Origin: Bacilli bacterium
GTDB lineage: Bacteria; Bacillota_I; Bacilli_A; RF39; UBA660
Assembly: GCA_017459965.1 (NCBI GenBank)
Contig: JAFUBW010000009.1
Span: 1 to 42,535 of the forward strand
Length of the DNA stretch: 42,535 bases
Reading direction: 5' to 3'
This document shows, piece after piece, positions 4,828-42,477 of the stretch. The translations under genes were made by a program, and so were the position numbers. How positions within the stretch are numbered: position 1 is the stretch's first letter; the number at the start of each line of letters is the position of its first letter. The notes under the pieces are model-generated. The model made no database searches and had not been told where the DNA came from. It saw nothing but the letters and a program-made list of their open reading frames with translations.

Positions 4828-5367
4828 CTATTGTTTCATTTTATATTGATCTAATTCATTTAATATTTCTTCTCTTTTTTTATTAAGGGATTCCTCAGAA
4901 ATTACAAAAAGACTAAATCCTAAAATTTTCCATATTTTATCCCCAAGTTCTTCTCCATGATTAAAGTATGCATAAACAGTTGCTTTAGGATCTGTTTTTC
5001 TATCTGTTCCAAGTTCAAGACCAACTTGTTGTCTTACATCAGGTGTCAATTTCCATTTATATATGTCTTCTATCATATAAATAAAACCAAGTAATATTTT
5101 TAAATATTCTTCATAATAGTTTAAATTATGTTGTTTTTCATTTAATATTTTCTTTTTTATTTTTAATAATTGTTCTTTTGTTAATACATCATCAGTTATA
5201 TTTAATAAATTACAAATATAATCTTTACTTGTTATATTATTTAGATTAAAAGTAGTAATATTTTCAATTGATTCATTATTATCTAATCTTTTTTCTTCTT
5301 CTAATTTCTCTATTAAATCAAGTAATAATACTTTAGCTTTTTTATATTCTTTAAAATAATTATCCAT
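4828..5367 (-). CDS. Uncharacterised protein, upstream of gmk
   Basis: I do not recognise this 179-residue protein. It is soluble and mostly helical by composition. The N-terminal half is Leu/Lys/Glu-rich with coiled-coil character (about residues 1-30 and 55-85). The C-terminal half holds the only distinctive segment, around residues 105-155, with WKLTPDVRQQVGLELGTDRK followed by a HGEELGDKIWK motif. No signal peptide or membrane segment is present. It lies directly before gmk and after rpmF on the same strand, so a housekeeping role linked to translation or nucleotide supply is possible but unproven. Confidence 0.8.
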   Translation of the reverse strand: MDNYFKEYKKAKVLLLDLIEKLEEEKRLDNNESIENITTFNLNNITSKDYICNLLNITDDVLTKEQLLKIKKKILNEKQHNLNYYEEYLKILLGFIYMIEDIYKWKLTPDVRQQVGLELGTDRKTDPKATVYAYFNHGEELGDKIWKILGFSLFVISEESLNKKREEILNELDQYKMKQ

Positions 5368-5406
5368 ACCTAGTCTCCTTATAAAATAATTTTAACAAAA
5401 TAAAGT

Positions 5407-5432
5407 AAAAAAAACAACTAATTATTTAGTTG
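5407..5432 (-). terminator. Intrinsic terminator after rpmF
   Basis: On the minus strand CAACTAA pairs with TTAGTTG over a 4-base loop and is followed by eight T. It overlaps the end of rpmF. Confidence 0.8.
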
Positions 5433-5610
5433 CTTCTTCTTTTTCTACTACATTTTTTCCTTTATAAAATCCACATTCTGGACATACTCTATGTGATCTT
5501 ATATCAGCACCACAATTTGAGCATTTAACAGTTCCATTAGCTTCTACTTTATAATGAGTTCTTCTCATTCTACCACTAGTTTTAGATACTTTTCTAAAAG
5601 GTACAGCCAT
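5422..5610 (-). CDS. rpmF: 50S ribosomal protein L32, zinc-ribbon form
   Basis: The protein starts MAVPFRKVSKTSGRMRRTHY, the typical L32 start, and carries four cysteines in two CxxC pairs (CSNC and CPEC) forming a zinc ribbon. It is 62 residues long. The start is the ATG at 5610; GGAAGGAG lies 6 bases before it, and an in-frame GTG three codons upstream overlaps that ribosome binding site. It directly follows the DUF177 gene, the classic yceD-rpmF pairing. Confidence 0.96.
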   Translation of the reverse strand: MAVPFRKVSKTSGRMRRTHYKVEANGTVKCSNCGADIRSHRVCPECGFYKGKNVVEKEEATK

Positions 5611-5626
5611 TTTATACACTCCTTCC

Positions 5627-6124
5627 TTATTCGTTTAAAAATTCTTTTAATTTTTCTAATCTTGGATCGATATCCGTATTTTCTACCTTTTCCTCAGTAA
5701 TAAATTCCCATCCGTCACCTTTTAAATTTTTTAATTCAACATCTGGAGAAATAACTTTCAAAGGTACTTCCAATATAATATTTTGCCATATAATTGGAAT
5801 TAAATCAATAGAATTATTAATAATTTTATTATTTTCTTCAATATCTAATGATTCATCTGATTCACCAATTATTTCATTTATGTCAATATCTATATCATAT
5901 TTAACATCTTTTAATGATATACTACAAATTAAAGTAAGTGTACACTTTATATTCAAATTAAGTTCAAAATTATTTTCGTATGGTCTTATATCTCCACTTA
6001 CTTTTATTTCACTTATGTCTTTAATATCCGTATTTTCTAAATAATCTTTGTCAATATTTACTATATCATCAATTAATATTTTATCTGTTAAACCTGTGAT
6101 TAATTTTGAAAGATTAATAAACAT
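5627..6124 (-). CDS. YceD/DUF177 family protein
   Basis: A 165-residue acidic protein with the layout of the DUF177 (YceD) family, which in many bacteria is encoded immediately before rpmF and in plants and E. coli is tied to 23S rRNA accumulation. The family landmarks are a central beta region with KCTLTLICS (two cysteines), a segment IDLIPIIWQNIILEVPL, and a C-terminal DGWEFITEE...DPRLEKLKEFL. The second Cys pair found in many homologues is absent. The position 16 bases before rpmF is strong support. Confidence 0.8.
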   Translation of the reverse strand: MFINLSKLITGLTDKILIDDIVNIDKDYLENTDIKDISEIKVSGDIRPYENNFELNLNIKCTLTLICSISLKDVKYDIDIDINEIIGESDESLDIEENNKIINNSIDLIPIIWQNIILEVPLKVISPDVELKNLKGDGWEFITEEKVENTDIDPRLEKLKEFLNE

Positions 6125-6192
6125 GATATCACTCCAAACACACTAAAATTATATATTAAATAACAAAAAAAATCAATATAATAAAACAAAAT

Positions 6193-6217
6193 AAAAACTA
6201 TTTATAAAATAGTTTTT
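6193..6217 (-). terminator. Hairpin terminator after small gene 6216-6407
   Basis: AAAAACTATTT pairs perfectly with AAATAGTTTTT over a 3-base loop. The minus-strand side continues T-rich, and the hairpin touches the stop codon of the small gene. Confidence 0.6.
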
Positions 6218-6407
6218 ATGCAGATACATTTATTCTCATTTGTAACTTTTTATTTTTTTGATCTTCTTTAACTAATGCATCATATAAAGCTAAATCATAT
6301 TCATTAAATGATCCAGACTTAATTCTAAATTTTAAATCTTTAAGAACTACATTTATATTATTTTTATAATTATTAACAATATTTTCTGAAATTACTATAT
6401 TATTCAT
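6216..6407 (-). CDS. Small uncharacterised protein (63 aa)
   Basis: I do not recognise it. It is a basic, helical 63-residue protein starting MNNIVISENIVNNYKNNINV. A longer reading frame extends upstream to 6476, but the ribosome binding site GGGAG lies 9 bases before the ATG at 6407 and makes that start much better. It has no membrane segment. It lies 62 bases downstream of the GATase-like gene on the same strand. Confidence 0.6.
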   Translation of the reverse strand: MNNIVISENIVNNYKNNINVVLKDLKFRIKSGSFNEYDLALYDALVKEDQKNKKLQMRINVSA

Positions 6408-6469
6408 AAAATTCATCTCCCTTTTTTTTTCGGCAACGAAATAAATGTTATCAAAAAATATAATAATTG

Positions 6470-7063
6470 TCAACACCTATCAATAAAATAATTAAAAAGG
6501 AGTTTACTATTTATATCTTTTTCTAAAAATTCTGGATTCCATTGAACTCCAACAAAAAATATTTTGTTTTTATCTTCAATAGATTCAATAATAAAATCAT
6601 CACTGTATGATGAAACAGTAAAAATAGTTTCTTTTACATAAAATGTATGATTACTATTTACATAAATTTTATTTTTACCTATTATATTTTCTAAAATAGA
6701 ATCTTTTTTTATATTTATTTTATGAGAATATTTATTATTATTTTTATGTAAATTATTATCTAGTAACTCTACTGTTCCATTAAAGGCTCTAACCATTTCT
6801 TGCATACCTAACCCTATTGCAAGTGTAGGTTTATCAATATCATATAAATATTTAATTACATTATTAATTTTATTATTATTTGATCCAATTAGAATAAATC
6901 CATCACATAGATTAATTAATTCTCTTATTTTATTAAAATCATAATTATCATTAATAATAATTCCAATTAATAAAATATCGTAATTTGATAAATAATTAAT
7001 TATATTATTATATATAATCATTTTGTTATTAGTATCTTTTAATAATATACCTATTTTTTTCAT
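6470..7063 (-). CDS. Class I glutamine amidotransferase-like protein lacking catalytic Cys and His
   Basis: The fold is that of the class I glutamine amidotransferase / peptidase C26 family (PuuD-like gamma-glutamyl hydrolases). The nucleophile elbow normally reads G-I-C-R-G-M-Q, but here residues 82-88 read AIGLGMQ, with Gly84 replacing the catalytic Cys. Near the C-terminus the usual QWHPE is QWNPE (174-178), with Asn176 replacing the catalytic His; Glu178 is kept. The frame is otherwise intact (197 residues, start ATG at 7063), so this is a probable pseudoenzyme rather than a pseudogene. It is divergent from the YlbJ-like gene with only 10 bases between starts. A binding or regulatory role is inferred. 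Confidence 0.75.
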   Translation of the reverse strand: MKKIGILLKDTNNKMIIYNNIINYLSNYDILLIGIIINDNYDFNKIRELINLCDGFILIGSNNNKINNVIKYLYDIDKPTLAIGLGMQEMVRAFNGTVELLDNNLHKNNNKYSHKINIKKDSILENIIGKNKIYVNSNHTFYVKETIFTVSSYSDDFIIESIEDKNKIFFVGVQWNPEFLEKDINSKLLFNYFIDRC

Positions 7064-7073
7064 ATTATATATT

Positions 7074-7964
7074 ATGAAAAAATATATAAATATATTATTA
7101 ATTATATTATTTGTAATCTTAGAGGTTTTTTTATTATCTAATTCAAAAATAGTTATCTATAGTTTTAGAAAAACATTAAATATATGTTTATATAATTTAA
7201 TGCCTACAATGTTTTTTTCAATTATTATCTCTCAAATATTAATTAAACTAAATATTAAAAATTATATACCAAATTTTATTAAAAATATATTTATTAAATT
7301 ATTTAATATAAATCAAAACGATGTAATTATATTTTTACTATCTATACTAAGTGGATATCCAAATAATGGAAAAATGCTTATTAATAATAAAAACTTAAAT
7401 AATATTATTTTATACACTAATTTTGTTAATCCAATATTTTTAATATGTACTGTAGGTGGTATATATTTAAAAAATATTAAATTAGCTCTAATAATATTAA
7501 TATCACATTATATTTCAAATATTATACTAGGTATTATTTTAAGAAAGAATAATATAAACGATGAAAAAGAAATAAAAAATGACAATAAGTCATTTTTAAA
7601 TATATATAATAGTTCACTTAAAGATACTATATATACATTAAGTATAATATTTTCTAATATATTATTCTTTTCAATTATTATTTCATTATATACTAATATA
7701 ACTAATATTAATGAACCAATTAATTCAGTTTTAATTGGTTTAATAGAATTTTCTTCAGGTATATATAATATATCTATCTTAAATATAAATTTATTTTTAA
7801 AGGGATTAATAATACTTATAATAATAACTTTTGGAAGTTTTAGTATACACATGCAGATGATTAGTATTAATGACAAAATAAAATACATTAAGTATTTATT
7901 TTATAGAATACTTAATGTATTTATTTCAATTATTATTTATTTAGTAATAACAGCTATTGTATGA
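7074..7964 (+). CDS. YlbJ-like sporulation/nucleoside-recognition membrane protein
   Basis: About 296 residues with roughly eight hydrophobic segments. The central motif LSGYPNNGKML followed by NPIFLICTVGGIYLKN matches the SGYP(V)GAK...TN..GP.FMIG pattern of YlbJ and related Gate-domain membrane proteins, which in Firmicutes are needed for spore formation. The ATG at 7074 starts a natural leader MKKYINILLIILFVILEV; an earlier in-frame start at 7023 lies inside the divergent gene and is unlikely. No clear ribosome binding site precedes 7074, so translation initiation may be weak or leaderless. Its last 24 bases overlap the end of the convergent prepilin-like gene. YlbJ assignment is by motif and length; the ligand is unknown. 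Confidence 0.7.
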   Translation: MKKYINILLIILFVILEVFLLSNSKIVIYSFRKTLNICLYNLMPTMFFSIIISQILIKLNIKNYIPNFIKNIFIKLFNINQNDVIIFLLSILSGYPNNGKMLINNKNLNNIILYTNFVNPIFLICTVGGIYLKNIKLALIILISHYISNIILGIILRKNNINDEKEIKNDNKSFLNIYNSSLKDTIYTLSIIFSNILFFSIIISLYTNITNINEPINSVLIGLIEFSSGIYNISILNINLFLKGLIILIIITFGSFSIHMQMISINDKIKYIKYLFYRILNVFISIIIYLVITAIV

Positions 7965-10010
7965 TGAGCATCCACAAGCTGCAGTTGCACATGTATTAGT
8001 AGTATAAGATGTTGATGTTGTACATCTACGATCTTGGAAACAATAATATGGACTATATTTACCATTCTTTTTAGTACATGATGATATTTTATATCTGTGA
8101 GTCAAATAACCATTTTTATAAGTACAAATATCTCCGAATCCAGGAATATTACATCCAGTAGACCCAACTGAACAACTAGAAGTTTGTCCATAATAATCAC
8201 AATCTCCATTATTAACCCAAGAGCCACAACTTGTAGAAGTATGTGCTGTTGTACCACAATCTGAATGTTGACATGTATTATATGATGAACATCCACATGA
8301 TGAATCAGATCCATATCTTATCCATTGTGCTGTTAGAGTTTCATTTCCTGCTGTTGTATATTTATCATCTGGTAATCTATAGTTTGCACTACTTCTTCTT
8401 CCTTCTGCTTTACCCCATTTTACCCAATGGTCCATTAATCCTTGATAGCTTGTTCCATATACATTTCGTACATCTTTATATGTATTTGAATAATATGTTG
8501 CGTTAAATGAACCTGATGTATACCATCCTATGAATATATATCCACCTCTACTTGGTGTTGGTAATGATCCATATGTACTATCATAAGTTACTGTTTTTGT
8601 TTTTGGTGATACTGAACCACCATTTGGATTAAATGTTATTGTATATGTATTTGCTTTCCAGTGTGCTGTTAGGGTTTCATTTCCTACAGTTTTATATACA
8701 CTATTTGCATTTCTACTTGCACCTGATGAATTATACCATCCAGTAAATGTATACCCTGGTCTTGATGGTGTTGGTAGTGTTCCATATTTGCTATCATATG
8801 TTACTGTCTTTTTATTTGGTGATACTAATCCTCCTGCTGGTTCAAATACTAAAGTATAATTATTTGCTTTCCACTGTGCATAGTAAGTTACTGTTCCACT
8901 TGTTGCTGCATTTTTTATACTTACATTTGGTGCTAATACATATCCTGCGTTTGCTTTCTTCCATCCTTGGAATGTGTAACCAGTTCGTGTAAATCCATTT
9001 GCTTTTAGACTACATGCTGCATCATATGTACATGTATGACTTGTTGTTGTTCCTCCTGTTGCTCCATTTCCATTATATGCTACTGTGAATGTATTAGCTT
9101 TCCACTGTGCATAGTAAGTTACTGTTCCACTTGTTGCTGCATTTTTTATACTAGCTCCTGGTGCTAACATATTTCCTGCATTACCTTTCTTCCATCCTTG
9201 GAATGTGTAACCAGTTTTTGTAAACCCATTTGCTTTTAAATAACATTCTTGATCATATGTACATATATGACTTGTTGTTGTTCCTCCTGTTGCTCCATTA
9301 CCTGCATATGCAACTGTGAATGTATTTGCTTCCCAATTTGCTGTATATTGAATTGTTGTTTTTATTGTTACGGTATTTTTCTCTAATTTTTTTCCGTTTG
9401 CGAACCAACCTTTAAATGTATATCCTGTTTTTTGTACAGTTGGTACTTGTACTTCTTGTCCAAATTTACCTACTACTTCTGTTTCTCCACTTATGATTTG
9501 ACCACCATTTGGATTAAATGTTATTGTATAATCTAATAATTTTTTATTTTGATATACTATTTTTAAATCTTCATTATCTCTGTTTTTCTTTATATATATT
9601 GTTATTACATAATATTCATGAGTTCCTAAATGTTTTTCTACTTTATATGTTTTATGATCACTATTTTCTCTTATTGATACTTTATCTGGTAATTCATATA
9701 TTGTTCCACCATATATTATTTGATTATTATCTTTATTAACTTCTATATCTTTATCAATATCTTTTAATTTAATTTTACCTGATTCTTCTGTAACTCCTTT
9801 AAAATCTTCCGCATCATACGCTACTTCTAAATCATCATATACATGTTTTAATAAATTATTTTCATATACTGAATATTCTTCATTTACTAGTAAATCATTG
9901 TTTTTATTTGTTAGTACTATTACTGTTCTTAGTAAATATATCATTACAACTGTTATTAAAACAAAACTTACTATAACTTCTACTATCGTATATCCTTTTT
10001 TATTTTTCAT
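7941..10010 (-). CDS. Prepilin-like surface protein with InlB-type repeats and Cys-rich tail
   Basis: The N-terminus MKNKKGYTIVEVIVSF is a type IV prepilin signature: basic leader, Gly6 before the cleavage point, Tyr7, Glu11 at mature position 5, and a hydrophobic helix to about residue 33. Residues 34-160 form a pilin-like domain. From about 160 to 563 there are five InlB_B (Listeria-Bacteroides) repeats, each with GYTFxGW and an ending like YxAxW. Repeats 2 and 3 are nearly identical 77-residue units. The fifth repeat is interrupted by a block with DVRNVYGTSY and GKAEGRR, resembling a common surface-protein motif. The last 126 residues hold 16 cysteines, with a CGCSSYNxC motif at both ends. 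The presumed role is a pilus-displayed or envelope-anchored adhesin. It shares strand and context with the prepilin at 10019 and a divergent PilB-like ATPase. Confidence 0.8.
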   Translation of the reverse strand: MKNKKGYTIVEVIVSFVLITVVMIYLLRTVIVLTNKNNDLLVNEEYSVYENNLLKHVYDDLEVAYDAEDFKGVTEESGKIKLKDIDKDIEVNKDNNQIIYGGTIYELPDKVSIRENSDHKTYKVEKHLGTHEYYVITIYIKKNRDNEDLKIVYQNKKLLDYTITFNPNGGQIISGETEVVGKFGQEVQVPTVQKTGYTFKGWFANGKKLEKNTVTIKTTIQYTANWEANTFTVAYAGNGATGGTTTSHICTYDQECYLKANGFTKTGYTFQGWKKGNAGNMLAPGASIKNAATSGTVTYYAQWKANTFTVAYNGNGATGGTTTSHTCTYDAACSLKANGFTRTGYTFQGWKKANAGYVLAPNVSIKNAATSGTVTYYAQWKANNYTLVFEPAGGLVSPNKKTVTYDSKYGTLPTPSRPGYTFTGWYNSSGASRNANSVYKTVGNETLTAHWKANTYTITFNPNGGSVSPKTKTVTYDSTYGSLPTPSRGGYIFIGWYTSGSFNATYYSNTYKDVRNVYGTSYQGLMDHWVKWGKAEGRRSSANYRLPDDKYTTAGNETLTAQWIRYGSDSSCGCSSYNTCQHSDCGTTAHTSTSCGSWVNNGDCDYYGQTSSCSVGSTGCNIPGFGDICTYKNGYLTHRYKISSCTKKNGKYSPYYCFQDRRCTTSTSYTTNTCATAACGCSSYNSCYY
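8871..9332. repeat. Two tandem near-identical 231-bp coding repeats
   Basis: The unit beginning CCACTGTGCATAGTAAG at 8871 recurs at 9102, exactly 231 bases (77 codons) later, with few differences. Both encode InlB-type repeats inside the prepilin-like gene. In-frame gain or loss of units by recombination would keep the gene open. Confidence 0.85.
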
Positions 10011-10018
10011 TTTATCAC

Positions 10019-10489
10019 CTACTCATCACATTCAGAACCTACTATTGAATAACTATCATCATTATATATAACTATATATTTATACTCACATAAATTATAA
10101 GTATTATTATCGTTATATTCTGATAGAAATTTTTTTAATCTAATACTTATATTTTCATCTTTAATTAAATTTTCTATATTTTTCTTTGAATAAAATATTT
10201 CTTTTATATTTAATTCATCTTTAATTGCGCTATCAAAATCAGTTATTTGTACATAATCTTTATTTTCTTCACTAAAAGATTCTATATAATATTTTTCTTG
10301 ATCAGAAAATAATTTTTTTATTTGATATGCATTATATATTCCTTGAGCTGTATTAAATTTAGTAATTTCATTATCTTCTTTAATATAATAATTCATTATT
10401 ATTGCATAAACCATTGTAATAACTGTTGCGACTACTGTAATTGCGATTATAGTTTCAGCAAGTAAATAACCTTTACTATTTTTTATCAT
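10019..10489 (-). CDS. Type IV prepilin-like (pseudopilin) protein
   Basis: A 156-residue protein starting MIKNSKGYLLAETIIAITVV: a short basic leader, Gly-Tyr cleavage site, and Glu at mature position 5, then a hydrophobic helix and a small acidic C-terminal domain with two cysteines (CEY and SECDE). This is the signature of class 3 signal peptides cut by a prepilin peptidase. The frame is open upstream to 10606, but that would put the pilin signal 39 residues inside, and GTAGGTGAGA sits before the ATG at 10489. It is followed 8 bases later by the repeat-bearing prepilin, so the two form one operon divergent from the PilB-like gene. No prepilin peptidase is seen in the window. Confidence 0.85.
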   Translation of the reverse strand: MIKNSKGYLLAETIIAITVVATVITMVYAIIMNYYIKEDNEITKFNTAQGIYNAYQIKKLFSDQEKYYIESFSEENKDYVQITDFDSAIKDELNIKEIFYSKKNIENLIKDENISIRLKKFLSEYNDNNTYNLCEYKYIVIYNDDSYSIVGSECDE

Positions 10490-10506
10490 TTTTATCTCAC
10501 CTACTA

Positions 10507-10604: not shown

Positions 10605-11843
10605 ATGCTTAAAACATTTGATTTTGAAAAATTACCTATTGTTGAGATAGTAAATGAAATTATTATTGATGCAACTAAAAACAGGGCCAGTGATATTCAC
10701 TTTGACCCTCTTTCTGATACATTAAAAGTAAGAATTAGAATTGATGGTAGACTTATTGATTATTGTTCTATACCAAACGATTATAAAAGAAATTTAATAA
10801 CAAGAGTTAAGATAATCGCTGGTATGAACATTACTGAAAATAGACTTCCTCAAGATGGTGCGATTAAAACATCATTAAATGGTGTCCCTCTTGATATGCG
10901 TGTATCTTCATTACCTACTAATGCTGGTGAAAAAATAGTTATTCGTATATTAGACTATTCAATGAGTATTCAAGGACTTGAAAAACTAGGATTTACTAAA
11001 GATAATTATGATAAAATAATAAAAATGATAAATATTCCAAATGGAATTATATTAGTTACTGGTGCCACTGGTACTGGTAAATCTACAACAGTATATTCTG
11101 TTTTACAAAAACTAAATAAAGAAGAAGCAAATATAATTACTGTTGAAGATCCAGTTGAAATGGATTTACCTGGTATTAACCAAGTACAAGTAAGTAGTGA
11201 AATTGGTTTAACATTTGCTAATGTACTTAGATCTATATTAAGACAAGACCCTGATATTATAATGATTGGGGAAATTCGTGATGATGAAACTGCTACTATA
11301 GCTGTAAGAGCATCTATTACTGGACATTTAGTATTATCTACTCTTCATACAAATGACTCGCTTAATACTATTGAAAGACTTTTAGATATGGAAGTTGAAA
11401 GATATCTACTTGCTGCTTCTCTATCTGGTATAGTATCTCAAAAATTAGCTAGAAAATTATGCCCTTATTGTAGAAAAAAAATACAAACTAATCAATATCA
11501 AAAGCATTTATTTAAAAAGAATTTAGGCGTTGAATTAAATGAAATATTTATAGCTGGTGATGGTTGTGAACATTGTATGAATGGTTATAGTGGTCGTATT
11601 GCTATTCATGAAGTTTTATTAATAAATGAAGATATTAGAGATGCTATTTCTAATAATGTAAAAAAAGAAGAATTAAAAGAATTAGTATATAAAGGTGATG
11701 TTAAAACATTACTTCAAGATGGTTTATTAAAAGTAGCTAATGGTTTAACTACATTTGAAGAAATAATTAGATTAATTGAATTGGACGCTGAAGATATAAT
11801 TATTCAAAAAAATGAATTAGATGAAGTAATTGAAACAAAATAA
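10605..11843 (+). CDS. Type II secretion / type IV pilus assembly ATPase (PilB/GspE family)
   Basis: A hexameric ATPase that powers pilus or pseudopilus assembly from the cytoplasmic side. Walker A is GATGTGKS at 153-160, followed by VEDPVE (Asp box) and the Walker B/arginine region DPDIIMIGEIRDDETA. A zinc site follows from two Cys pairs (CPYC and CEHC), then GYSGRIAIHEVL, all diagnostic. At 412 residues it lacks the extra N-terminal MshEN-type domain of long PilB proteins and is closer in size to ComGA/short GspE forms. It faces two prepilin genes, its probable substrates. The partner platform protein (PilC/ComGB) and the peptidase are not in the window. GGGG precedes the ATG. Confidence 0.93.
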   Translation: MLKTFDFEKLPIVEIVNEIIIDATKNRASDIHFDPLSDTLKVRIRIDGRLIDYCSIPNDYKRNLITRVKIIAGMNITENRLPQDGAIKTSLNGVPLDMRVSSLPTNAGEKIVIRILDYSMSIQGLEKLGFTKDNYDKIIKMINIPNGIILVTGATGTGKSTTVYSVLQKLNKEEANIITVEDPVEMDLPGINQVQVSSEIGLTFANVLRSILRQDPDIIMIGEIRDDETATIAVRASITGHLVLSTLHTNDSLNTIERLLDMEVERYLLAASLSGIVSQKLARKLCPYCRKKIQTNQYQKHLFKKNLGVELNEIFIAGDGCEHCMNGYSGRIAIHEVLLINEDIRDAISNNVKKEELKELVYKGDVKTLLQDGLLKVANGLTTFEEIIRLIELDAEDIIIQKNELDEVIETK

Positions 11844-36556: not shown

Positions 36557-38617
36557 CTATGGACTGCGTGTCTCAATTTTTATTTTATTATTTTTAATTT
36601 TAAACATAATACTTCCTTGCTTGTCTGTCCTATATATTTTTGAATTATTTAAATTATTTAATACTTCTTTATTCGGATGTCCATAACGATTGTTCTTTCC
36701 AACACTAATAATTGAATATTTAGGTTTTATTTCATTAATAAATCTTTTACTACTACTCGTCTTACTTCCATGATGTCCTACTTTTAATACATCTATATCT
36801 GATAGATTGTATTTATCTAACATTTCCTTTTCAGTAGCACTTGAGGCATCACCCATAAATATAAATTTATATTCATCTAACTCTGTATAAATAACATTAC
36901 TATTATCATTTTCATTATCATACTCTTTTGTTTGTAAAAAGTATAATTTATTTTTATCGACATTTAATTCTTTGATACATGAATATTTTTTTATATTCTT
37001 TTTATTTAATATCTTGATTAACTCTTTTTCTAAGTCGTTATAAGACCCACAGTTAAAAACTACTTTTTCAACTTTAAAGTTATTAACTAAATTAATAGCC
37101 TCTCCTATATGATCAAAGTCTCCATGTGTTAATATTAGGTAATCTATCCTTTTAACACCTTCACTTTTAAAATAAGGAAGTAATATATTATTAGTTAAAT
37201 CATAATTGTTTTTATCATTAAAAGAAACTATTCCTCCCGTATCAATCAATATATTTTTATTAAATATTCTTAATAATGTACAGTCTCCTTGTCCTACATT
37301 CAAAAATGTAACACTAGGTTTTAATACTATACTTTTATAAAAAATAAAGATAATAAATATAAAGATAATATTTAATACATTTTTTATTGAAATATTTTTA
37401 AATAGTTTATATAAAAATAAATAATATAAAAATATAAATAATACTGGTAGTTTTGATATTTTTAATATAAAAATATCTAAATCAGATAATATATTACTTA
37501 CATTTTCAAATAAATTTATTAAACTATAATTAATATTATCTAAAAAAGGAAAAATAATAGTTAATAAATTAATTGGAAATAATATATAAGATACAAAAGG
37601 TACATAAAATATATTATAAATAACACTAAAGATGTTTAATTGATAAAAATTATTAATTAATATAGGAATAGATACTAAAAATGATATCAATGATACTTTT
37701 AATAATTTATAAAAATAATTTCCTTTATTTAATAATTTATTGAAATGAATTAAACTAAAACTAATTGTAAAAGAAAATATAAAACCAACATTATAAATTA
37801 AAAATGGATTATAAAATAAAAACATTGAAAATAACAATATTACTAAATTTATATTTTTAATATTCAATTTCAAAATTTTATTTAAAAAAAACATAATAAA
37901 TTGTAAACACGCTCTAGACATTGAAATAGTAAAATTTGTTAAAAACAGATATAATAATAACAATATAGAAATTAGTAAATATCTTTTGTTTTCTTTAATA
38001 AATGACAATAATTTTAAAAGTAATATTGATATAAATGAAACATGCATACCTGATATTGCAAATAAATGACTTATACCTATTTTTTGATAGTTTAAATACA
38101 TTTCATTATCAATATTATTTTTATCTGCGAATAAAAATGTTTTTATGTATGCATTTGATTTTTTACATTTATTAATTCTTTTTAATAATTTGTTTTTAAA
38201 AATATAAAATATGTTATTGGTTTTTTTAATTATTTTTATATTATCAGCGTTTACTGTATATTTTATTTTTCTAGAAAGCAAATATTTTCTATAATTAAAT
38301 AAATTAAAATTAGTATTATTAGATGGTTTATCAAAAGTACCATATACTTTTATATAATCGCCATATTCTATATTATTTATTTCTTTTTTATTTTTAAAAT
38401 AATAATTAACTACTAAATTTTCTTTTCCTTTTATATAAACAGTTGCTTTTTCATTTTTTATTTTATAATCTCTTATATAACCAATTACTTGTTTAGTATT
38501 ATTATTATAAATTGATTTTGTTTCTTTATTTATATTTATAAATGTATAAATTAAACTAAAAATTAATAATATTAAGAATAGATAATTATACTGTAATATA
38601 TTCTTTAATTTTTTCAA
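36557..38617 (-). CDS. comEC: DNA internalisation competence protein ComEC
   Basis: A 686-residue polytopic membrane protein forming the channel for single-stranded DNA in natural transformation. An N-terminal DUF4131/OB region (about 25-130) precedes the competence domain with many membrane helices, including FAISGMHVSF and MSRACLQFIMFF. The C-terminal metallo-beta-lactamase-like domain has FLNVGQGDCTLL, the metal motif THGDFDH near 500, and KVGHHGSKTSSS. It is complete. Its start lies inside the end of comEA (32-base overlap), so the two are translationally coupled. comEB is absent, as in many species. Confidence 0.95.
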   Translation of the reverse strand: MKKLKNILQYNYLFLILLIFSLIYTFININKETKSIYNNNTKQVIGYIRDYKIKNEKATVYIKGKENLVVNYYFKNKKEINNIEYGDYIKVYGTFDKPSNNTNFNLFNYRKYLLSRKIKYTVNADNIKIIKKTNNIFYIFKNKLLKRINKCKKSNAYIKTFLFADKNNIDNEMYLNYQKIGISHLFAISGMHVSFISILLLKLLSFIKENKRYLLISILLLLYLFLTNFTISMSRACLQFIMFFLNKILKLNIKNINLVILLFSMFLFYNPFLIYNVGFIFSFTISFSLIHFNKLLNKGNYFYKLLKVSLISFLVSIPILINNFYQLNIFSVIYNIFYVPFVSYILFPINLLTIIFPFLDNINYSLINLFENVSNILSDLDIFILKISKLPVLFIFLYYLFLYKLFKNISIKNVLNIIFIFIIFIFYKSIVLKPSVTFLNVGQGDCTLLRIFNKNILIDTGGIVSFNDKNNYDLTNNILLPYFKSEGVKRIDYLILTHGDFDHIGEAINLVNNFKVEKVVFNCGSYNDLEKELIKILNKKNIKKYSCIKELNVDKNKLYFLQTKEYDNENDNSNVIYTELDEYKFIFMGDASSATEKEMLDKYNLSDIDVLKVGHHGSKTSSSKRFINEIKPKYSIISVGKNNRYGHPNKEVLNNLNNSKIYRTDKQGSIMFKIKNNKIKIETRSP

Positions 38618-39302
38618 ATAAAGAATCCCCTATACCACTTACATTTTTTATATCTTCTATATTTTCAAAATCACCATTTTCTTCTCTATATGATATAATT
38701 GCATCTGCCTTACTTTCACCTATACCTGTTATTGTAAGTAATTCTTCTTTTGTAGCAGTATTAATATTTACAAGTTTATTTTCTTCTTCTATAGTTTCAT
38801 TATTATTAGTTTTAACACTACTTTTTTTATTATTTTTTACATTTGCATTATTATTTTCATCTATTACAATAATATTCTTATCTAACTTTTCATTTATTTC
38901 TTTTGTAGAAATAGTTTGTTGTTTATACTTATCTATTTCTTCTTTCGTATATATTACAATAAACATTTCATCAAATATTTTTTTACTTAAATTAATGATA
39001 CTAGTATCAGCATTTTCTTTTAAACCACCTGCTTCATTAATAACATCTATTACTCTAGAATTTTCTTTTAATTTATATACGCCTTCATTATTTACGGCAC
39101 CTTTTATATCCACATAAAAAAAAGTTTCTTCTTTTTCTTCTTTTTTATCTTCTTTTTTAGCTAGTATTTCTTTATTTTCTTTTATTTTTATTTCTTCATC
39201 TTTATTATTAATATAATAATAAATAACTATTATAGATATAATAATTAATAATATAAATATAGTTATTATATATTTTAAATATTCTTTTAATTTTTCTTTC
39301 AT
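38586..39302 (-). CDS. comEA: DNA receptor competence protein ComEA
   Basis: A membrane-anchored DNA-binding protein of 238 residues. An N-terminal membrane helix (about 10-30) is followed by a charged linker, an SLBB domain (about 58-120: VDIKGAVNNEGVYKLKE...VIDVINEAGGL), a second Lys/Asn-rich linker, and a C-terminal double helix-hairpin-helix (about 174-238: VNINTATKEELLTITGIGES). This layout is that of Firmicute ComEA. It starts the comEA-comEC pair; AAGGAGATGA precedes the ATG. Confidence 0.95.
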   Translation of the reverse strand: MKEKLKEYLKYIITIFILLIIISIIVIYYYINNKDEEIKIKENKEILAKKEDKKEEKEETFFYVDIKGAVNNEGVYKLKENSRVIDVINEAGGLKENADTSIINLSKKIFDEMFIVIYTKEEIDKYKQQTISTKEINEKLDKNIIVIDENNNANVKNNKKSSVKTNNNETIEEENKLVNINTATKEELLTITGIGESKADAIISYREENGDFENIEDIKNVSGIGDSLFEKIKEYITV

Positions 39303-41679: not shown

Positions 41680-42477
41680 TTAACTAACTCTTTTATACAT
41701 ATATACAGTTATATAAGGCTGCATATGTGAAATTGTTGCTTCTGTTCCTGTGAAACTATGATTATGAGCTGATGTAGCATTTGCTGCAGTTACTTTTGTT
41801 ACTGCTCCTCCACTTGCTTTTGCTGTATGATTATGTGTTGCATTTATATCAAAAGCCCCATAAGATTTTGCTCCTGTATGATTAGTTAAGTCATTTGGTG
41901 TTCTATAACTATTGGCACCACTACCATAAATTGAAACAATACCAGAAGCAGAACTTATTATACTTGCATTTTCTCCTCCATGAAATGAAACTCTACCTGT
42001 TAAAGTCTTAGAATCAACAGTAATTGTTGGTTGTGTAAACGAATGTGTGTGCTCTCTTATACCTGTTTGAGCTGCAGTTAGAGTTGTATTGTTTACTTTT
42101 CCATCTTTTGCTGCAGGAGTATAACTTTGACTTTCAGCACCACCAGTTGCTTCTACTGTAGTATAATTTGTAGTTCCATTATTCCCCATTGCTACTATTG
42201 TTCTTCCAGCTGCAAAAACTTCCCATTCTCCTCCAAATCTTTCTTGAACTTTAGCTACTGTGTCATCTTCTACACTCATATATATACTTCCTACTGGATA
42301 TATTAATTCTCTTATTTCATTATATCCTTGTGAATGATATAATTTATTTTCTTTTCCTTTTATTTCTTCTTTCTCTTCTTTTTGTGTATATATGTAATTT
42401 GTTACATATGTAAATATACTCATACTCATTAGTATTGTTATTATTCCTATTATTAATACTATATTCCTTCTTTTCAT
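41680..42477 (-). CDS. Membrane-anchored protein with phage tail-collar-like domain
   Basis: A 265-residue protein. A basic start (MKRRN) and a hydrophobic helix (about 5-28) form a signal anchor, followed by a Lys/Glu-rich linker. From about residue 58 the sequence IYPVGSIYMSVEDD, then FGGEWEVFAAGRTIV, resembles the collar or receptor-binding part of phage tail fibres and baseplate proteins. Three His-rich motifs follow (HTHSF, HNHTA, HNHSF), and it ends MQPYITVYMYKRVS, also typical of tail proteins. It has no phage neighbours and carries a bacterial membrane anchor, so a domesticated surface protein is inferred. A second copy follows upstream on the same strand. Confidence 0.75.
   Translation of the reverse strand: MKRRNIVLIIGIITILMSMSIFTYVTNYIYTQKEEKEEIKGKENKLYHSQGYNEIRELIYPVGSIYMSVEDDTVAKVQERFGGEWEVFAAGRTIVAMGNNGTTNYTTVEATGGAESQSYTPAAKDGKVNNTTLTAAQTGIREHTHSFTQPTITVDSKTLTGRVSFHGGENASIISSASGIVSIYGSGANSYRTPNDLTNHTGAKSYGAFDINATHNHTAKASGGAVTKVTAANATSAHNHSFTGTEATISHMQPYITVYMYKRVS

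Follow-up and report, generated by a model that had tools for sequence, protein, structure and literature searches.

A minor prepilin with five InlB-type repeats and a cysteine-rich tail at a conserved pilin-pair locus in gut Bacilli of the RF39 lineage

The window, that is, the whole stretch of 42,535 nucleotides analyzed here, contains a reverse-strand gene (positions 7941 to 10010) whose product, designated p2, is a modular minor prepilin of 689 amino acids. The gene has an ATG start and no internal stop. Located 8 bp upstream and transcribed in the same direction is the gene for a partner minor prepilin, p1 (10019 to 10492, reverse strand), which has 157 amino acids and is not extended. 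A pilus extension ATPase of the PilB/GspE/ComGA type is encoded divergently (10605 to 11843, forward strand) and is the sole T2SSE match in the genome. On the other side of p2, the gene for a YlbJ-like membrane protein is convergent (7023 to 7964, forward strand); its TIGR02871 match of 107.5 bits is below the cut-off of 304.65. Membrane proteins that look YlbJ-like by eye also lie behind the pilin pair in five loci of relatives (L029, L033, L035, L036 and L038).

The p2 frame is the best of the six by codon use in the pilin module, the repeats and the tail alike, and the margin is smallest in the tail (+0.16 bits per codon versus -0.50 in the next frame). Third-position GC of these three parts is 5%, 10% and 10%, at or near the 5.0-10.5% range of the 26 other genes of the window. 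The share of cysteine in those 26 genes is 0.85%; p2 has 20 cysteines, none in residues 1-157, four in the repeats and 16 in residues 572-687.

The N-terminus of p2 bears a class III leader, MKNKKG (9993 to 10010, reverse strand), evident from the sequence and from a match to N_methyl (PF07963/IPR012902) over residues 1-24, which scores 23.5 bits against a Pfam cut-off of 21.2. Cleavage is predicted before Tyr7, between MKNKKG and YTIVE, which would place a glutamate at mature position 5 (Glu11 of the precursor). The type IV pilin signal claimed in the original prediction is therefore confirmed, and the pilin-like domain that was thought to follow it proves to be a complete minor-pilin module (residues 1-157; 9540 to 10010, reverse strand). 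Profiles were built from short pilins alone, 52 for p1 and 37 for p2, and the p2 profile matches the window protein with 92.2 bits over positions 2-161 of its 169. Pilins of at least 230 amino acids are called extended, a threshold that, like the prepilin detector, was set by us. Among 48 prepilins of this size, 47 match the profile of their own family, the exception being a third frame in one locus (L055), and the extended prepilins other than the window protein are matched over nearly the whole short-pilin profile, which indicates that the extensions were added after a complete pilin.

The point of fusion can be located in a genome of the same genus, G001, whose ATPase is 89% identical to that of the window. 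Its p2 orthologue is unextended and ends at about residue 157 of the window protein. It lies between the same neighbours and overlaps the end of the YlbJ-like frame, as does p2 in the window. A structure prediction of the pilin module (AF2, three sequences) has a pilin-like arrangement, a long helix (residues 9-65) preceding strands, at a low confidence (pLDDT 53.4) that leaves the fold unconfirmed; the model of full-length p2, from two sequences, is poor (pLDDT 41.6). A PDB fold search with the weak pilin model returned no match with E under 2; a type 4 pilin ranks 24th among the chance matches. With such models and an empty fold search, assignment of the pilin fold rests on the profile and the signal.

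Five InlB-type repeats had been predicted in p2, and PF09479 (Flg_new) finds five stretches with 153.2 bits against a gathering cut-off of 27; the divergent InlB model Flg_new_2 (PF18998) adds a match of 34.9 bits. These repeats constitute an extra C-terminal domain that is not pilus-specific, the mark of a modular pilin. Repeat 1 comprises residues ~161-229 (9324 to 9530; all of these features are on the reverse strand) and is recognized by Flg_new/Flg_new_2, with boundaries set by eye. Repeats 2 and 3 (residues ~230-383; 8862 to 9323) are a 231-nt tandem duplication with 86% identity, and each has a cysteine pair in a CTYDxxC motif (Cys250 and Cys256, Cys327 and Cys333). Repeat 4 (residues ~384-454; 8649 to 8861) and repeat 5 (residues ~455-564; 8319 to 8648) are Pfam matches. 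Another InlB protein of this genome, of 1250 amino acids, is not favoured as the source of the repeats, the identity being only 29%.

Repeat 5 is split by an insert of ~45 residues (residues ~500-546; 8373 to 8513), which is a copy of a different, EGR-type helical repeat, YxxxYxDlxxxyGxxYxxxxxHwxxxGxxEGR. Its identity to repeats in two large proteins from another genome (G006:C22) is 40% (E 1.3e-6), and it was modelled, with low confidence, as two helices. The two large proteins are encoded in tandem on the reverse strand of that locus (L266; 2206-6036 and 7317-11000), are very similar to one another and have 1276 and at least 1227 amino acids; their C-terminal parts consist of many EGR-type repeats of ~40 residues for which no Pfam model scores above its cut-off.

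The remainder of p2 is a cysteine-rich tail (residues ~565-689; 7944 to 8318). Its 16 cysteines span residues 572-687 and are framed by CGCSSYNTC (572-580) and CGCSSYNSC (679-687), just as originally described. No relatives of the tail were found at E≤0.01 in the 192 other genomes of the family. The only PDB sequence match to p2 is Listeria InlB (2Y5P, E 0.026), a member of the B-repeat family (PF09479) to which the five repeats belong. Unlike the InlB B-repeat proteins, the window repeats ride on a prepilin, and the LPXTG-type motif of a sortase anchor is absent from the last 60 residues.

At E≤1e-60, 180 of the family's 193 genomes have the extension ATPase, and the same locus in relatives holds two small prepilins, p1 then p2, transcribed away from the ATPase. 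The loci compared number 111. They are the window, ten picked through a pilin query, which are a biased sample, and 100 from the 180 ATPase-bearing genomes, taken in the order of the match list. Six loci listed with less than 2.5 kb on the upstream side were excluded (G167, G142, G133, G071, one of two in G063, and G140), and some of those fetched are short owing to contig ends. Both pilins were found in 67 of the 111. One or both are extended in 36 of these (8 both, 8 p1 only and 20 p2 only) and neither in 31, three of the 67 loci holding a short pilin that runs off the contig. Since 31 loci lack an extension, it is not needed for the machine. When the ten biased loci and the window are left aside, both pilins are present in 56 of 100 loci and extended in 32 of the 56 (hand count). 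The 44 loci that were not scored as holding both pilins include some truncated where the contig ends, and in one of them (L048) both are present and extended, in reverse order.

A quick-search tree of the 67 loci, with modest support (stars on 26 of the 64 inner branches), requires at least 15 changes between the short and the extended state of p2; the mean of 200 label shuffles is 21.7, and none is as low. For p1 it requires at least 13 (shuffle mean 14.5, with 38 of 200 as low or lower). These counts indicate that extensions are gained and lost often, and on this tree those of p2 appear partly inherited and those of p1 almost random. In one genome (L090, G106) the whole p1-p2 pair is tandemly duplicated, and both p1 copies (626 and 785 amino acids when mature) have ConA-like lectin domains.

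The extensions are diverse. By hand count, a Pfam module scores above its cut-off on 27 of the 47 extended minor pilins, window included, and 20 extensions have no known module. The glycine-rich ALK_LTK_GRD is found on 16 pilins, both p1 and p2, and is often accompanied by a bacterial Ig-like domain; the ConA-like Laminin_G_3 is on four. DUF285, LRR_5, Fib_succ_major, DUF6273, CBM49 with DUF7507, an Ig-like domain alone, and InlB (the window) are found once each. Single-linkage clustering divides 48 extensions by sequence into 22 groups. Of these, 16 consist of a single extension, that of the window among them, two have 2 members and three have 3; the largest has 19, some of the linkage within it resting on a shared Ig-like part. 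All of this is read directly from the genomes: the prepilin signal with its pilin module, the point of fusion, the gene neighbourhood, the conservation of the slot and the diversity of what it carries. Because other modules stand at the same slot in relatives, the pilin pair can be regarded as a holder whose outer module is replaceable, and the differing sticky modules at one gene position suggest a pilus with an exchangeable tip. Behind the pilin pair of locus L034 (G012) is a third gene (5220-6764) for a protein of 514 amino acids with an N-terminal hydrophobic stretch and with Ig-like, glycine-rich and F5/8-type modules resembling those on the adjacent p1.

InlB repeats are present on the minor-pilin pair in the window only, 1 of 47 extended minor pilins. 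A search for further proteins that unite a prepilin signal and InlB repeats yielded two, both outside the p1-p2 pair and in other genera. The first (G021) has 605 amino acids, an N_methyl match of 26.2 bits, three InlB repeats and a cysteine-rich C-terminus, and adjoins ribosomal protein genes (named by eye). The second (G015, L265:2151-5120) has 989 amino acids, an N_methyl match of 24.3 bits, five InlB repeats and a glycine-rich end, and lies 1.8 kb from the ATPase; InlB repeats and glycine-rich modules are otherwise found apart at the minor-pilin slot. By eye, the N-termini of both (GFTLIE...) look like those of major pilins and not like that of p2. The fetched loci, including the window, have 35 InlB frames, of which 12 have no N-terminus; of the other 23, two are prepilins (the window and G021), the G015 frame having been found separately, outside this set. 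The description of p2 as an uncommon architecture therefore holds for the choice of InlB. It does not hold for the extended minor pilin as such, which is common (36 of 67 loci), or for the modular pilin, which is a described class (PMC8179133).

Core parts of type 4 filaments have been tabulated (PMC10191384), and the ATPase, platform protein and prepilin peptidase are each present once in the window genome, whose assembly is 89.7% complete; the latter two are both on contig C11. The genome has eight N_methyl matches, seven of them over the cut-off. The window also encodes the ComEC/Rec2 DNA-uptake channel (36557 to 38617, reverse strand; TIGR00361, 281.3 bits, above cut-off) and a ComEA-like DNA receptor (38586 to 39302, reverse strand; TIGR00426, 94.4 bits, above cut-off). 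The ComGA model gives the ATPase 266.5 bits (cut-off 300) and the ComGB model gives the platform protein 148.7 (cut-off 240). Against the ComGE model p1 scores 27.8 and p2 19.1 (cut-off 49), and p2 scores 13.7 against ComGF (cut-off 80). Filing the pilins as ComGE or ComGF was rejected since these scores are under the cut-offs. The best NCBIfam match, weak throughout, is ComGE for 26 and ComGF for 8 of 38 p2 modules (the window and 37 short relatives), and ComGD for 25 and ComGE for 22 of 52 short p1. Of two marks of a type 4a machine, PilM and a second, retraction ATPase, neither was found in the window genome at the stated completeness: it has no PilM_2 match and only the one T2SSE match. 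PilM is, however, a poor marker: the family's matches are mostly weak and fall in frames of ~420 amino acids, which are probably FtsA, and the control also matches in E. coli and B. subtilis. The filament machine of the genome looks Com-like, a resemblance that falls short of proof.

These features make it likely, in our judgement, that p2 is a modular minor pilin and that its InlB stalk and cysteine-rich head are displayed at a pilus tip. The protein would be exported as a prepilin and cut after Gly6 by the single prepilin peptidase of the genome, and its pilin module would pair with p1, encoded directly upstream. The facing ATPase and the platform protein would assemble p1 and p2 into a type 4 filament. 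An extension of this bulk would fit best at the filament tip. There the five InlB repeats would form a stalk, and the 16-cysteine head, stapled by disulfides, would be the surface exposed for contact, probably with a ligand from the host or from another microbe in the gut. The pilin pair would be the holder, and the outer module would be replaced over evolution. The prepilin route to a pilus, which the original prediction had proposed, is well supported by the N_methyl match, the module with its short orthologues, the adjoining ATPase, and the peptidase and platform protein in the genome. Tip location and adhesion, like cleavage, pairing, assembly, disulfides and the ligand, are extrapolated largely from a parallel with Streptococcus sanguinis.

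More than 1,200 modular pilins in 264 architectures have been described together with S. sanguinis PilB (PMC8179133), and p2 is thus a variant within a described class. PilC and PilB of S. sanguinis likewise combine a pilin module with an adhesive C-terminal module and are modelled at the pilus tip (PMC9934059, PMC8179133). PilC, which has Ig-like and ConA-like lectin modules, binds glycans (PMC9934059), and both module types also occur at this slot in relatives of the window genome. Unlike PilC and PilB, p2 has an InlB stalk and a cysteine-rich head, and, in contrast to S. sanguinis, modules here change between genera at a fixed locus. The pili of S. sanguinis are T4aP, with a set that includes PilM/N/O (PMC10191384); of these three, PilM was searched for and not found in the window genome. 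CofB of ETEC and PilC/PilY1 are also tip-placed carriers of an adhesive part, but they differ in fold and lineage, and PilC/PilY1 is not a pilin (PMC8179133). InlB and Listeria do not appear in the main text of PMC8179133, and no InlB-pilin fusion was found in the titles and abstract openings of the literature searched on InlB and pilin. Type IV pili are mentioned in another reduced-genome gut lineage (PMC12306168); searches on RF39 with type IV pili, or gut Bacilli with modular pilins, found nothing on this locus. Beyond one odd fusion, the novelty is the conserved slot with its changing modules.

It is unlikely, though worth weighing, that the filament is a competence (Com) pilus whose extension serves DNA capture or assembly and not adhesion. 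ComEC and ComEA are encoded within the window, the genome has one ATPase and no PilM match, and ComGD, ComGE and ComGF are the best NCBIfam matches of the short pilins. The Com pilus, a T4dP with ComGD/E/F/G, appears to have the same minimal machine of four core parts (pilins, peptidase, ATPase and platform protein) and further shares the weak best family matches and ComEC/ComEA, and its tip pilins ComGD and ComGF are required for DNA capture (PMC12153270). Unlike in the Com pilus, however, scores are below the curated cut-offs in the members for which they are given here, the pilins are not in an operon with the ATPase and platform protein, and large modules have been added. The lectin, LRR, Ig-like and glycine-rich modules at the slot resemble binders of ligands, not of DNA, and adhesion and DNA uptake are not mutually exclusive.

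Somewhat less probable again is that the N-terminus is merely a membrane anchor or a pseudopilin, p2 being a membrane-held surface adhesin that never enters a filament. The InlB proteins of these genomes mostly lack a prepilin N-terminus (only 2 of 23 with an intact N-terminus have one), and the filament is predicted here from genes; yet the module covers the full length of the short minor pilins that are paired with the extension ATPase and is homologous to them, and a plain anchor would need neither a full module nor the retained Glu5. That p2 is an artefact in which a pilin gene and an InlB gene were joined by misassembly or frame fusion is highly improbable: the assembly is a draft of 23 contigs and the coding score is weakest in the tail, but the frame is unbroken with host-like third-position GC, 47 extended minor pilins (that of the window included) are known from the family, and misassembly was rejected on the conserved G001 flanks, which are of the same kind on both sides of the extension, and on the two further prepilin-InlB genes in other genera.

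The reading of p2 as a tip-displayed minor pilin can be extended, tentatively, to the group: it is possible, if rather doubtful, that this family of small-genome gut Bacilli has a sole type 4 machine, Com-like, with a fixed two-gene tip slot, and that the outer modules there, from InlB stalks and lectins to glycine-rich and LRR modules and cysteine-rich heads, are swapped between genera and between the two carriers. If so, a single filament would join DNA uptake and a rapidly changing adhesive tip; no description of such a combined pilus subtype was found in the literature searched. How simple filaments acquire many functions is still unclear, and the locus offers a natural comparison series with constant neighbours, two pilin modules, an extension absent or present, and many types of extension. 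Comparison or swapping within it could address which pilin is outermost, whether the bare pair builds a pilus, and whether the module sets binding specificity. The locus also supplies a hypothesis for the attachment of small-genome gut Bacilli to their host or neighbours.

Elsewhere in the window genome, locus L040 (G000:C14) encodes two prepilins of 222 and 280 amino acids (5861-7452 and 9418-10008) near a sortase gene (PF04203, 78 bits). Near the end of the window (41680 to 42477, reverse strand) is the gene for a membrane-anchored protein that by eye has a phage tail-collar-like sequence.
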